Positions 32,442-53,042 of a stretch of 64,000 nucleotides of DNA are shown here, one piece after another. Both the position numbers and the translations under genes were made by a program. Every line of letters begins with the position of its first letter. The first letter of the stretch is position 1. Source of the DNA: Bradyrhizobium sp. SK17 (GTDB taxonomy: Bacteria; Pseudomonadota; Alphaproteobacteria; Rhizobiales; Xanthobacteraceae); assembly GCF_002831585.1 (NCBI RefSeq), contig NZ_CP025113.1, positions 6,463,001 to 6,527,000 on the forward strand. Reading direction: 5' to 3'. Under the pieces are notes generated by a model that had not been told where the DNA came from, ran no database searches, and saw only the letters and a list, made by a program, of their open reading frames with translations.

Positions 32442-32541
32442 CGTCATTCCGGGGCGCGCCGCTTGGCGCGAGCCCGGAATCCATACTCATGATGGTGGTT
32501 ATGGATTCCGGGCTCGTCGCTGCGCGTCGCCCCGGAATGAC
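32442..32541. repeat. REP-like palindrome, family B (CGTCATTCCGGGGC)
   Basis: Left arm CGTCATTCCGGGGCGCGCC ... GAGCCCGGAATCCATA, right arm the complement TATGGATTCCGGGCTCG ... GCCCCGGAATGAC, with a short centre. It lies between two minus-strand genes (GST stop at 32548 and HCCA isomerase start at 32408). Confidence 0.9.
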
Positions 32542-32547
32542 AAAATA

Positions 32548-40224: not shown

Positions 40225-40264
40225 CGTCATTCCGGGGCTCGCGGAGCGAGAGCCCGGAATGACG
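40225..40264. repeat. Short perfect palindrome, family B core
   Basis: A 40-bp palindrome, CGTCATTCCGGGGCTCGC then GCGAGAGCCCGGAATGACG around a short centre, i.e. only the outer arms of family B without the inner GAATCCAT segment. It follows the transglutaminase stop by 15 bp. Confidence 0.85.
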
Positions 40265-47237: not shown

Positions 47238-47342
47238 CGTCATTCCGGGGCGCGCGCAGCGCGAGCCCGGAATCCATTTCTCCACACAGGTTACGGCCCG
47301 ATGGATTCCGGGCTCGGCGCTACGCGCCGCCCCGGAATGACG
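47238..47342. repeat. REP-like palindrome, family B
   Basis: CGTCATTCCGGGGCGCGCGC ... GAGCCCGGAATCCAT, then ATGGATTCCGGGCTCG ... GCCGCCCCGGAATGACG. The complete stand-alone form, in the gap between the nucleoside transporter and cupin stop codons. Confidence 0.9.
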
Positions 47343-49023: not shown

Positions 49024-50685
<1,662 letters not shown>

Positions 50686-50796: not shown

Positions 50797-50843
50797 CGTC
50801 ATTCCGGGGCGCGCGCAGCGCGAGCCCGGAATCCATAACCACG
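50797..50843 (+). repeat. Family B repeat, left copy flanking the GIY-YIG gene
   Basis: 47 bp beginning CGTCATTCCGGGG and ending TCCATAACCACG. Its reverse complement is identical, base for base, to 51145-51191. It ends 9 bp before the GIY-YIG ATG. Confidence 0.95.
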
Positions 50844-50852
50844 AGTGTCGAG

Positions 50853-51140
50853 ATGGCCTACTACGTCTATCTCCTTGCGAGCAAAAAGCACGGCACACTC
50901 TATCTCGGTGTAACAAACGATCTCGTGCGTCGCGTCCACGAACATCGGACGAAGGCGGTTAAAGGCTTTACATCGCGATATGGCGTCGACAAATTGGTTT
51001 GGTTCGAGATTTACGAAGACGCAACCACCGCGATCACTCGCGAGAAAGAGCTCAAGAAGTGGCGGCGCGATTGGAAGACCCGGCTCATTGAGGAGCAAAA
51101 CCCGGGATGGGTTGATCTCTATCCGGGGATATCCACGTGA
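50853..51140 (+). CDS. GIY-YIG nuclease family protein (UPF0213-like)
   Basis: 95 residues. YYVYLLASKKHGTLYLGVTNDLVRRVHEHR: the GIY-YIG equivalents are YVYLL and YLGVT, with Arg at RRVHEHR (about residue 26) and Glu at WFEIYEDATTAITREKELKKWRRDWK (about 50-75) in the family's catalytic positions. Stand-alone UPF0213-type nucleases have single-strand-DNA or unknown substrates. The gene is enclosed, with only 9 bp and 4 bp to spare, between two identical inverted repeats. It is not part of the groESL operon, as a terminator intervenes. Confidence 0.93.
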   Translation: MAYYVYLLASKKHGTLYLGVTNDLVRRVHEHRTKAVKGFTSRYGVDKLVWFEIYEDATTAITREKELKKWRRDWKTRLIEEQNPGWVDLYPGIST

Positions 51141-51144
51141 TAGC

Positions 51145-51191
51145 CGTGGTTATGGATTCCGGGCTCGCGCTGCGCGCGCCCCGGAATGACG
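51145..51191 (-). repeat. Family B repeat, right copy flanking the GIY-YIG gene
   Basis: 47 bp beginning CGTGGTTATGGATTCC and ending GGAATGACG; an exact inverted match of 50797-50843. It starts 4 bp after the GIY-YIG stop. Confidence 0.95.
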
Positions 51192-51225: not shown

Positions 51226-52377
51226 TCATGCGCTCTCGGGCGCCTTGAGGCGGACCAGCTTGGTCAGCAACGCATCGAGGCCCTGCCCGTCGCCGGCGTG
51301 CAGGTCGATGCGGCCGACCTTCTCGACCAGGCGCTCCAGCGACTCGAGCTCCTTGAGCCGCAGCAACAGAGGGTTCTCCTCCATCAGCTTGGCGGTGTTG
51401 AGGAGCGAACGCGTCGCCGCGGTCTCCTCCTGGCGACGGATCAAATTGGCCTTCGCCACCCGCTCCGCCTCCACCACCTTGTTGACCAGCTCGCGGATCT
51501 CGCCGGGCAGGATCACGTCCTTGACGCCGAGTTCGGTAACCTCGACGCCAGAGCCCGCGACACGGTCGCGGACATAGTCGCGCAACTCCTCGTCGAGCGC
51601 CGTCTTCGCAGACAGCACCTCGTCCAGCGTGCGGCCGGCCACCGCCTCGCGGATCGCGAACTGCACCAGGCGGTACAGCCACGCATCCACGTCGGGCACC
51701 GTGGCCACGACCCGCTCGGGATCGACGATCCGGCGGAACGCGGTCAGCGTCACGCGCAGCGCGATGCGGTCCTTGGTCAGCATCTCCTGCGCCGTGATCT
51801 CGATCGCCTGGGGACGCAGGTCGAGGCGCTTGACCTCGATCTTGCGGCCCGCGATCCAGAACGCGTGCCGGCCGGGCGCGAGCCGCTCGACCAGCTTGCC
51901 CTCGACCGTGAGCAAGCCCGCCTCGTGGTTCTCGACCACCGCCTCGGTGATGACGCCGGCCCGGTTGGGCTGGATCATCGCGAGGTGGCGCGCCGTGACC
52001 CTGGGATCGCTGGTCACGTCGATGCGCTCGACATCGACCACGGTCGCGACCTTCCAGTACACGCGGGTCTGCCAGGGCGTCATCAGTTGCACGGGACGGC
52101 CATCGAGGCTGACGATCGCGATCTCGTTCGCCTTGGTCTCGACCGCCGCGAACAGCTCGTCAGCCAGATCGGGCCGCGCGGCCTTGATCACCGCGAAGCG
52201 ATCCGCGGGGAATTCGCTGCGCACGACGCTGAACAGCTCGGCCTTGAGCTCATGCAAGGGATCGAACAGCCGATGGCGACCGGGGCCGAGCACCTGCTCG
52301 AGCCGGCCGTCACGCGTCAGCAATGCGCGCTCGCCATCCTTCACCGTCAACTTGGTCGTCAAGAAATGCCAGGTCAT
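51226..52377 (-). CDS. Slipin/SPFH-domain protein
   Basis: 383 residues from ATG 52377 (GGAGGC upstream); the longer frame to 52581 is not supported by the family. SPFH/band-7 domain from about residue 190 (KRLDLRPQAIEITAQEMLTKDRIALRVTLTAFRRIVDPERV), followed by GSGVEVTELGVKDVILPGEIRELVNKVVEAERVAKANLIRRQEETAATRSLLNTA, the coiled-coil C-terminus. No N-terminal membrane helix is obvious in this form, unlike stomatins. Function is membrane-domain organisation by analogy. Confidence 0.93.
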   Translation of the reverse strand: MTWHFLTTKLTVKDGERALLTRDGRLEQVLGPGRHRLFDPLHELKAELFSVVRSEFPADRFAVIKAARPDLADELFAAVETKANEIAIVSLDGRPVQLMTPWQTRVYWKVATVVDVERIDVTSDPRVTARHLAMIQPNRAGVITEAVVENHEAGLLTVEGKLVERLAPGRHAFWIAGRKIEVKRLDLRPQAIEITAQEMLTKDRIALRVTLTAFRRIVDPERVVATVPDVDAWLYRLVQFAIREAVAGRTLDEVLSAKTALDEELRDYVRDRVAGSGVEVTELGVKDVILPGEIRELVNKVVEAERVAKANLIRRQEETAATRSLLNTAKLMEENPLLLRLKELESLERLVEKVGRIDLHAGDGQGLDALLTKLVRLKAPESA

Positions 52378-52710
52378 GGCACGCCTCCATCGTTGCCTCG
52401 GGCCCATGGGCCTGAGAGCGGGTTTCATTTTGCAAAGGACGTGAGGACGCGAACGCGGCTTCCTGTCAGCCAAGCGGGCCGTGGCTTGAGCTTGCGCGAT
52501 GACGGGCGCACGCGCGCGATCGCACGACGATTGTCGTGCGGCCGTGCGGAGCCACCCGGCATCAGCGCAAGCGGTATCCACCGCGGCGCAAAGCCGGTCT
52601 CACAGTGTCGATGTTCGGACGAAGAGCCTTGCGGCAGGACGGCCGGACTGCGACTGAAGCGCGCGTCCGGTCCCCTTCAGAGGAGTCAGCTTTGAAGGCT
52701 GAAACGGAGC

Positions 52711-52783
52711 GCTTGGAGCGGGAATCGAACCCGCGACCCGATGAGTATCATTCACCTGCTCTAACCAACTGAGCTATCCTTTG
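52711..52783 (-). tRNA. Degenerate tRNA-Ile(GAT)-like sequence
   Basis: Read on the minus strand: D-arm AGCTCAGTTGGTTAGAGC, anticodon arm GGTGA-ATGATAC-TCATC (anticodon GAT, one G-T pair), and a perfect T-arm GCGGG-TTCGATT-CCCGC. The acceptor stem fails: CAAAGGA against TCCAAGC pairs at only three of seven places, and no CCA is encoded. Probably a pseudo-tRNA or remnant whose ends were rearranged; function as a tRNA is unlikely. Confidence 0.5.
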
Positions 52784-52853
52784 TGAGAAGATCGGATTCG
52801 AACCGGTACCTTCGGGATTTCAGTCCCGACGCTCGCCCATGAGCTTCATTCTC
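52784..52853 (-). tRNA. Second degenerate tRNA-like sequence, abutting the first
   Basis: Read on the minus strand: GAGAA/TTCTC acceptor pairing, D-arm GCTC-ATGGGC-GAGC, anticodon arm TCGGGA/TCCCGA with only a 6-nt loop (CTGAAA, GAA-like), variable AGGTA and T-arm CCGG-TTCGAAT-CCG. The short loop and one mismatch in the T-stem make it non-standard. It ends exactly where the Ile-like sequence begins, with no spacer. Functional status is doubtful. Confidence 0.4.
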
Positions 52854-53023: not shown

Positions 53024-53042
53024 CGTCATTCCGGGGCTCACC
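53024..53042. repeat. Family B repeat remnant
   Basis: CGTCATTCCGGGGCTCACC, the outer arm only, overlapping the last codon and stop of the LysR gene at 53038. The repeat thus provides the stop codon of that gene. Confidence 0.65.

Follow-up and report, generated by a model that had tools for sequence, protein, structure and literature searches.

We describe a small genetic unit of Bradyrhizobium sp. SK17 in which a GIY-YIG nuclease gene is enclosed by an inverted pair of palindromes, and we interpret it as a REP-associated nuclease, present as one gene per type and genome, that recognizes the CGTC REP flanking it and dispersed through the genome. We would put the probability of this reading at about 0.68. 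The unit lies in a window of 64,000 nucleotides, the whole stretch of DNA that was analysed (positions 6,463,001 to 6,527,000 of contig NZ_CP025113.1), in a genome of 8.29 Mb; the features discussed below are collected in Table 1, with positions counted from the first letter of the window.

Table 1. REP elements of the window, the nuclease gene and its two neighbours.
Feature	Position	Strand	Basis
groEL, left neighbour of the unit	49045..50685	+	putative label from sequence
Upstream CGTC-REP, type A, plus tail ATAACCACG on the gene side; tag outward	50797..50843	+	inverted-repeat comparison, DNA fold
GIY-YIG nuclease gene, 95 aa	50853..51140	+	ORF, Pfam
Downstream CGTC-REP, inverted, equal to the upstream copy over 47 nt	51145..51191	-	inverted-repeat comparison
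Slipin/SPFH-like gene, right neighbour, anchor in site comparison	51226..52581	-	putative label
Gene-less REP dimer, tags outward, 20-nt spacer, subtype A1 (inner margins as in A1 gene units)	32442..32542	.	z -10.9
Gene-less REP dimer, tags outward, 27-nt spacer, subtype A2 (inner margins as in the sister subclade of genes)	47238..47342	.	z -10.6
Solo palindrome, tag at each end	40225..40264	.	pattern, fold
Half REP lacking a partner to pair with, at the 3' end of the adjacent reverse-strand ORF	53024..53037	+	no fold, z = 0.54

The nuclease gene sits, as the earlier note on this DNA had described, inside perfect 47-bp inverted copies with 9 bp and 4 bp between arm, gene and arm; both the coordinates and the complementarity (100% over 47 nt) agree with that description. 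Each arm is laid out as CGTC-ATTCCGGG-loop-CCCGGAAT-CCA, with the tail ATAACCACG next to the gene, and so carries the CGTC tag, the 8-bp stem starting with AT and the CCA tail that characterize the CGTC superfamily. Folded as single-stranded DNA, positions 50797-50836 gave -15.3 kcal/mol (z -3.48), and the inverted-repeat score of the real unit was 47, against a best value of 14 when the same geometry was placed at random in the window 491 times (500 draws, less the 9 that fell at the gene). The open reading frame runs from ATG to TGA and has GIY-YIG as its sole Pfam match (PF01541, E=2.4e-16), while NCBIfam returned only a below-cut-off match to a group I intron endonuclease family. Residues Y6, Y17, R27, E64 and N83, which we take to be the GIY-YIG catalytic set, are unchanged in all ten diverse family members that were compared. 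By sequence profile the protein is related to two solved members of the UPF0213/GIY-YIG family, BH0048 (1zg2) and EF2693 (1ywl), both named hypothetical proteins. Further homologues in the window genome are two at 65% and 57% identity and one at 36%. The neighbours of the unit are presumably groEL and a slipin/SPFH-like gene.

The perfect identity of the arms had previously been read as a sign of recent formation or active correction, a reading that is not supported. Both REPs could be measured in 19 of 31 A-type loci and are identical in three of these, the window unit among them; furthermore, four others among the strict A-REPs listed for the window genome (25 besides the arms) have exactly the 35-nt core of the arms. 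Thus, the identity needs no special cause, and active correction is rejected on the same two grounds.

The same note had listed four other copies of the family in the window as gene-less palindromes. Those at 32442, 40225 and 47238 are such palindromes, but the fourth, at 53024, proved to be a half REP that does not fold. The arm (z -3.5) and the two dimers (z -10.9 and -10.6) all fold strongly as single-stranded DNA. The solo palindrome at 40225 has the form of one REP plus the tag of a far one, as a deletion from CCCGGAAT to CCCGGAAT would leave, and is probably the scar of such a deletion, with one CCCGGAAT in each of two REPs; by strict pattern it is one of two solo palindromes in the window genome. 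The strict A-REPs of this genome number 27. Two form the arms of the gene unit, for 21 an inverted partner lies at a distance of 20-49 nt, and four are partnerless. The superfamily trait of occurring mostly as inverted dimers holds for them, and among the A-REP pairs of the genome only the gene unit encloses a gene. As a separate observation, the 8 nt outside the tag of A-REPs are rich in pyrimidines at both ends (C at -4 in 64-69%, a pyrimidine at -1 in 87-96%), which could reflect either a longer end or a target preference.

How general is the pairing of nuclease and palindrome? A homologue at E<=1e-8 is present in 95 of 98 genomes of the genus. We examined 112 Bradyrhizobium loci, drawn from 68 genomes and made up of the first loci and 80 others among the matches listed (further ones, including genes with internal stops, were left out). 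Inspection of such flanks had been proposed as a check of the partnership, and at 106 of the 112 loci one or both sides carry a typed palindrome within 200 bp. Over the same distance, fixed patterns assigned the same type to both sides at 71 loci, mixed types at 4, one side only at 31 and neither side at 6; five of these last six (L045 and four loci of type F) show a palindrome on visual inspection, which leaves L101 without a label. Inverted pairs scoring at least 16 within 150 bp were found at 83 of the 112 loci, whereas no random placement in the window (n=491) gave such a pair. Similarly, with each of several overlapping patterns counted, there are 233 pattern matches at up to 150 bp from the genes and none in the 153 kb beyond 300 bp at the same loci, a contrast that is biased upward because the patterns were derived from these very flanks.

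The pairing extends to other taxa. With a detector of tag plus stem working within 130 bp, 109 further loci (some of them Bradyrhizobium) gave a hit on both sides at 43, on one side at 32 and on neither at 34, whereas only 1 of 1128 random placements was hit on both. When either tag direction was allowed and the distance was set at 150 bp, the figures for 129 loci were 60 on both sides, 31 on one and 38 on none, against 4 of 1025 random placements on both; this set, too, contains some Bradyrhizobium, and its tally counts three genes twice (L240/L299, L242/L314 and L251/L309). Among the loci with two tagged sides are representatives of Polaromonas, Caenimonas, Smithella, Desulfobacteraceae, Omnitrophota, Marinimicrobia and Rickettsiaceae (taxon as annotated, most being metagenome assemblies), and in the palindromes of some loci the tag points toward the gene. 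Homologues free of any repeat had been named as the finding that would speak against a partnership. Within the genus they shrink from six by pattern to one once palindromes seen by eye are included, but the wider set is less uniform, with no tagged hairpin at 38 of 129 loci. Since related loci have flanks in common, the associations between gene and repeat are partly inherited. We also observed by eye a CCCTGAGCTTGTCGAAGGG-like palindrome at three loci that had been scored as bare, L319-L321, which belong to the five homologues of lowest score in a sample of 20; from them, the partnership may reach beyond CGTC REPs.

The nucleases and the repeats are matched by type. On a tree of 109 proteins the types of repeat, seven in all (A, B, C, C2, D, E and F), require 7 changes, where the minimum is 6; with shuffled type labels the mean was 65.9, and none of 200 shuffles gave a value as low as 7. 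Five of the types each occupy one side of a branch, and C and C2 are intermixed. This tree is built on few columns, with 61 of its 106 inner branches open; L048, L059 and L077 were dropped for internal stops, three mixed-type rows and L101 carry no type label among the 109, and L045, L081 and five F loci received their labels by eye (L003 also by pattern). Protein distance is correlated with REP-head distance (r=0.51, 0/2000 permutations) over those loci that have a hairpin on each side (94 of 201), and again over the loci from L177 on (r=0.37, n=33, 0/2000 permutations). Furthermore, the upstream and downstream REPs differ by a distance of 0.094 within a locus and 0.288 between loci.

Copy number follows the same pairs. 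Counting family copies against presence of the gene, another check that had been suggested, gave a median of 33 A-REPs in genomes with an A gene (n=29) and of 8 in genomes without one (n=51; p=4.8e-5), the gene's own flanks having been subtracted; for E-REPs the medians were 14 (n=19) and 4 (n=61; p=1.1e-4). The cross-controls gave p=0.83 for E-REPs against the A gene and p=0.07, only just unclear, for A-REPs against the E gene. These tests cover 80 genomes and ignore kinship. The A list was drawn up by hand at an identity of 71% or more, with partial matches in G007 and G020 scored as present, and the E list, also by hand, at 83% or more, with a partial match in G003 and a stop-bearing gene in G048 scored as present. 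Among the 51 genomes without a detected A gene, 13 hold at least 20 A-REPs, and 4 of the 29 with the gene hold fewer than 10; the former suggest either that copies outlive the gene or that another enzyme serves them. Nuclease types and REP types form cognate pairs, coupled in copy number in the two types counted.

The gene-less dimers can be tied to the gene units through their inner margins. In the window genome the spacers of dimers fall into two length classes, with a lone spacer of 49 nt besides. Dimers with a 20-nt spacer (n=5) scored 14.4 of 18 against the margins of A1 gene units (shuffle maximum 10.0) and 7.2 against those of A2, whereas dimers with a 26-28-nt spacer (n=14) scored 15.5 of 24 against A2 (maximum 11.1) and 9.5 against A1. 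As the inner margins are kept subfamily by subfamily, dimer and gene unit look like forms of one element. The dimers resemble members of two gene-bearing subfamilies, but with no gene inside, and the direction could have been either gene loss or gene capture. Two suggestions of the earlier note, a layout like that of REP and RAYT with a nuclease replacing the transposase and a specific partnership of gene and repeat, are both upheld by the like flanks of homologues, the tracking of the gene by copy number and the margins that dimers share with gene units.

The nearest system known to us is that of Ssn, a GIY-YIG nuclease of Neisseria meningitidis that reportedly cuts single-stranded DNA site-specifically at the NTS repeat, which we take to be dRS3. 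By description, the two systems have in common a small GIY-YIG nuclease and a high-copy repeat, which in both would be of the CGTC-1 kind if NTS is dRS3. To what is known to us of Ssn, the present analysis adds seven co-diversified gene-REP pairs in one genus, gene-less dimer forms, type-specific copy-number coupling and many states per site. CGTC REPs were catalogued by Di Nocera et al. (2013; PMC3733652), who describe a CGTC tag (or TGTC/CCTC), a stem of 8-9 bp starting with AT, a CCA tail and an occurrence mostly as dimers, across five phyla; dRS3 is given there as a CGTC-1 REP, and CGTC REPs are recorded in Bradyrhizobium with unusual loops. The window unit shares the tag, the 8-bp AT-start stem, the CCA tail and the predominance of dimers. 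The same authors report no association of these REPs with transposase genes, stating that they 'apparently lack a dedicated transposase' (PMC3733652), whereas the window unit offers a candidate enzyme. The listing of REPs in genes omitted hypothetical proteins of fewer than 120 aa (PMC3733652), and our guess is that a similar size filter may have hidden the 95-aa nuclease gene from the 2013 survey. In REPtrons, as described in PMC3116915 and PMC3733652, pairs of REPs surround an enzyme gene in cognate types and occur also as gene-less inverted doublets. RAYT (TnpA-REP) genes and REPINs resemble our unit in having an enzyme gene flanked by cognate REPs together with gene-less inverted doublets, but they combine a Y1/HUH tyrosine transposase with a GTAG tag, where the window unit combines GIY-YIG with CGTC. 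In the titles and abstract openings that were searched, we found no paper joining GIY-YIG nucleases with REPs.

We suggest the following mechanism. The REP pair that encloses the gene and the REP pair that encloses a spacer of 20-28 nt would be two forms of one element, and the nuclease would most likely act on the REP hairpin in single-stranded DNA (on the lagging strand, or in repair or uptake), placing its nick in the tag or close to it. If cutting and repair recurred, dimers could be copied, moved, shortened or removed, and this would account for both their spread and their turnover at fixed sites. The proposed cutting of single strands agrees with the action reported for Ssn on NTS, the repeat being a CGTC-1 REP if NTS is dRS3. 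Alternatively, the nuclease might recognize REPs without spreading them, and would cut them as marks on incoming or exposed single-stranded DNA, tuning transformation or repair, as in the case of Ssn; the REPs would then spread in some other way or persist as tolerated marks. This is a serious possibility, if somewhat short of an even chance. It gains from the site-specific cutting that Ssn is said to perform on NTS, a CGTC-1 REP if NTS is dRS3, the single locus per type and genome suits a domesticated enzyme, and the coupling of copy number is compatible with it too. However, marking alone does not predict that dimers and gene units should have margins in common, subfamily by subfamily, and sites turn over between REP families.

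This turnover is seen where one site can be compared between genomes. Close relatives differ at the site between a TetR-like gene (a label given by eye) and the slipin gene. L269 lacks such a repeat there, and L271 and L275 have a solo palindrome; in L272 the gene of the unit is missing its middle part, L273 has an A1 unit whose gene is open, and L277 has an oppositely oriented A2 unit with an insert in its upstream REP. Between the 3' end of groEL and slipin, there is a gene unit in G000 and G033, an oppositely oriented one in L289, a dimer with one REP altered in L067 and a solo palindrome, beside a partial groEL match, in L069. The site of the dimer at 32442 was compared in 14 relatives (L353-L366): G390 has an A dimer there, and others have decayed forms or palindromes from different families, of the CGTCATTGCGAGG type and the CGTCATCCTGAGG type. 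Such differing states at fixed sites imply that the repeats turn over on a species time scale. A comparison with empty sites in relatives, also proposed earlier, was thus fruitful as regards the states of a site, but it yielded no clean empty site with exact ends at the window locus (51 and then 265 genomes of the genus, with 16 and 30 loci read) and none at the two dimers in 14 relatives, six of which could not be bridged at the 47238 site. No exact filled and empty pair that would reveal a target-site duplication was present in the loci compared; the flanks beside the tags have diverged, and for this reason neither the ends nor a duplication can be fixed.

The site data also bear on a homing-like cassette, in which the nuclease would cut REP-dimer sites and the REP-flanked gene would be copied in through the shared REPs in either orientation. 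This we consider unlikely. It could account for the 23 of the 30 top A loci that adjoin a groEL, split 12 to 11 between the two orientations, for the presence at the TetR-like gene/slipin site of an A1 unit in G042 and an oppositely facing A2 unit in G049, and for the groEL-slipin site, where G012 has a dimer and both G000 and G033 have a gene unit. However, no genome has two sampled loci of the same type, independent insertion fits equally well, and orientation beside groEL is near-fixed within each subclade, the window unit being the clear exception, opposite to the other A1 units. The opposite orientation of the window unit would fit an inversion between the arms, and fits independent insertion too.

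Is the unit, then, an insertion sequence of the ordinary kind, bounded by terminal inverted repeats and with a GIY-YIG protein that happens to serve as its transposase? The inverted repeats themselves, the internally deleted copy L272 and the MITE-like dimers are what such an element might show, but we regard this as very improbable and have rejected it, because near-identical full-length copies are absent within the genomes sampled. One genome (G220, L299-L308) has ten different GIY-YIG homologues, at most 68.5% alike; in the 112 loci from 68 genomes we found no two sampled loci of one type within a genome, and the best same-genome pair reaches 72%; a separate look at type E gave the same picture. 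In addition, the dispersed copies that were read are gene-less, and a target duplication was not identified at the loci compared. As no genome has two sampled loci of one type, the nuclease gene does not appear to multiply itself. In this it resembles RAYT genes, which are not known to multiply as insertion sequences do. Several of the homologues in G220 have distinct palindromes, some with tags facing the gene, and in G037 two loci of the related C2 and C types (L089 and L112, 72% alike) lie about 4 kb apart on contig C175. Finally, chance, or selection for hairpins (as terminators) next to a small gene whose protein does not recognize them, is scarcely credible: REPs are reported to lie mostly downstream of coding regions (PMC3733652), and the 32442 site bears several families or decayed forms in the relatives read, but the types co-segregate on the protein tree, the REPs of one locus resemble each other (0.094 against 0.288 between loci), both sides are tagged at 60 of 129 loci as against 4 of 1025 random placements, and copy number is gene-specific.

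More broadly, GIY-YIG nucleases may be the missing enzymes of CGTC REPs, forming a second REP/REPIN system without tyrosine transposases, in which the pairs have co-diversified across phyla and the nuclease drives the copying, excision and turnover of dimers. This wider proposal is tentative, and we hold it at odds only just below even. A partner enzyme makes the origin and upkeep of CGTC REPs a testable question. The natural pairs of nuclease and repeat, of which the ten homologues in G220 are an example, amount to a code for how a nuclease of 95 residues may read a hairpin, with a possible use in cutting single-stranded DNA at chosen sites. As a minor observation, positions 52715-52853 of the window contain two reverse-strand matches to the Rfam tRNA family (47.7 and 32.3 bits) that are not called by ARAGORN.
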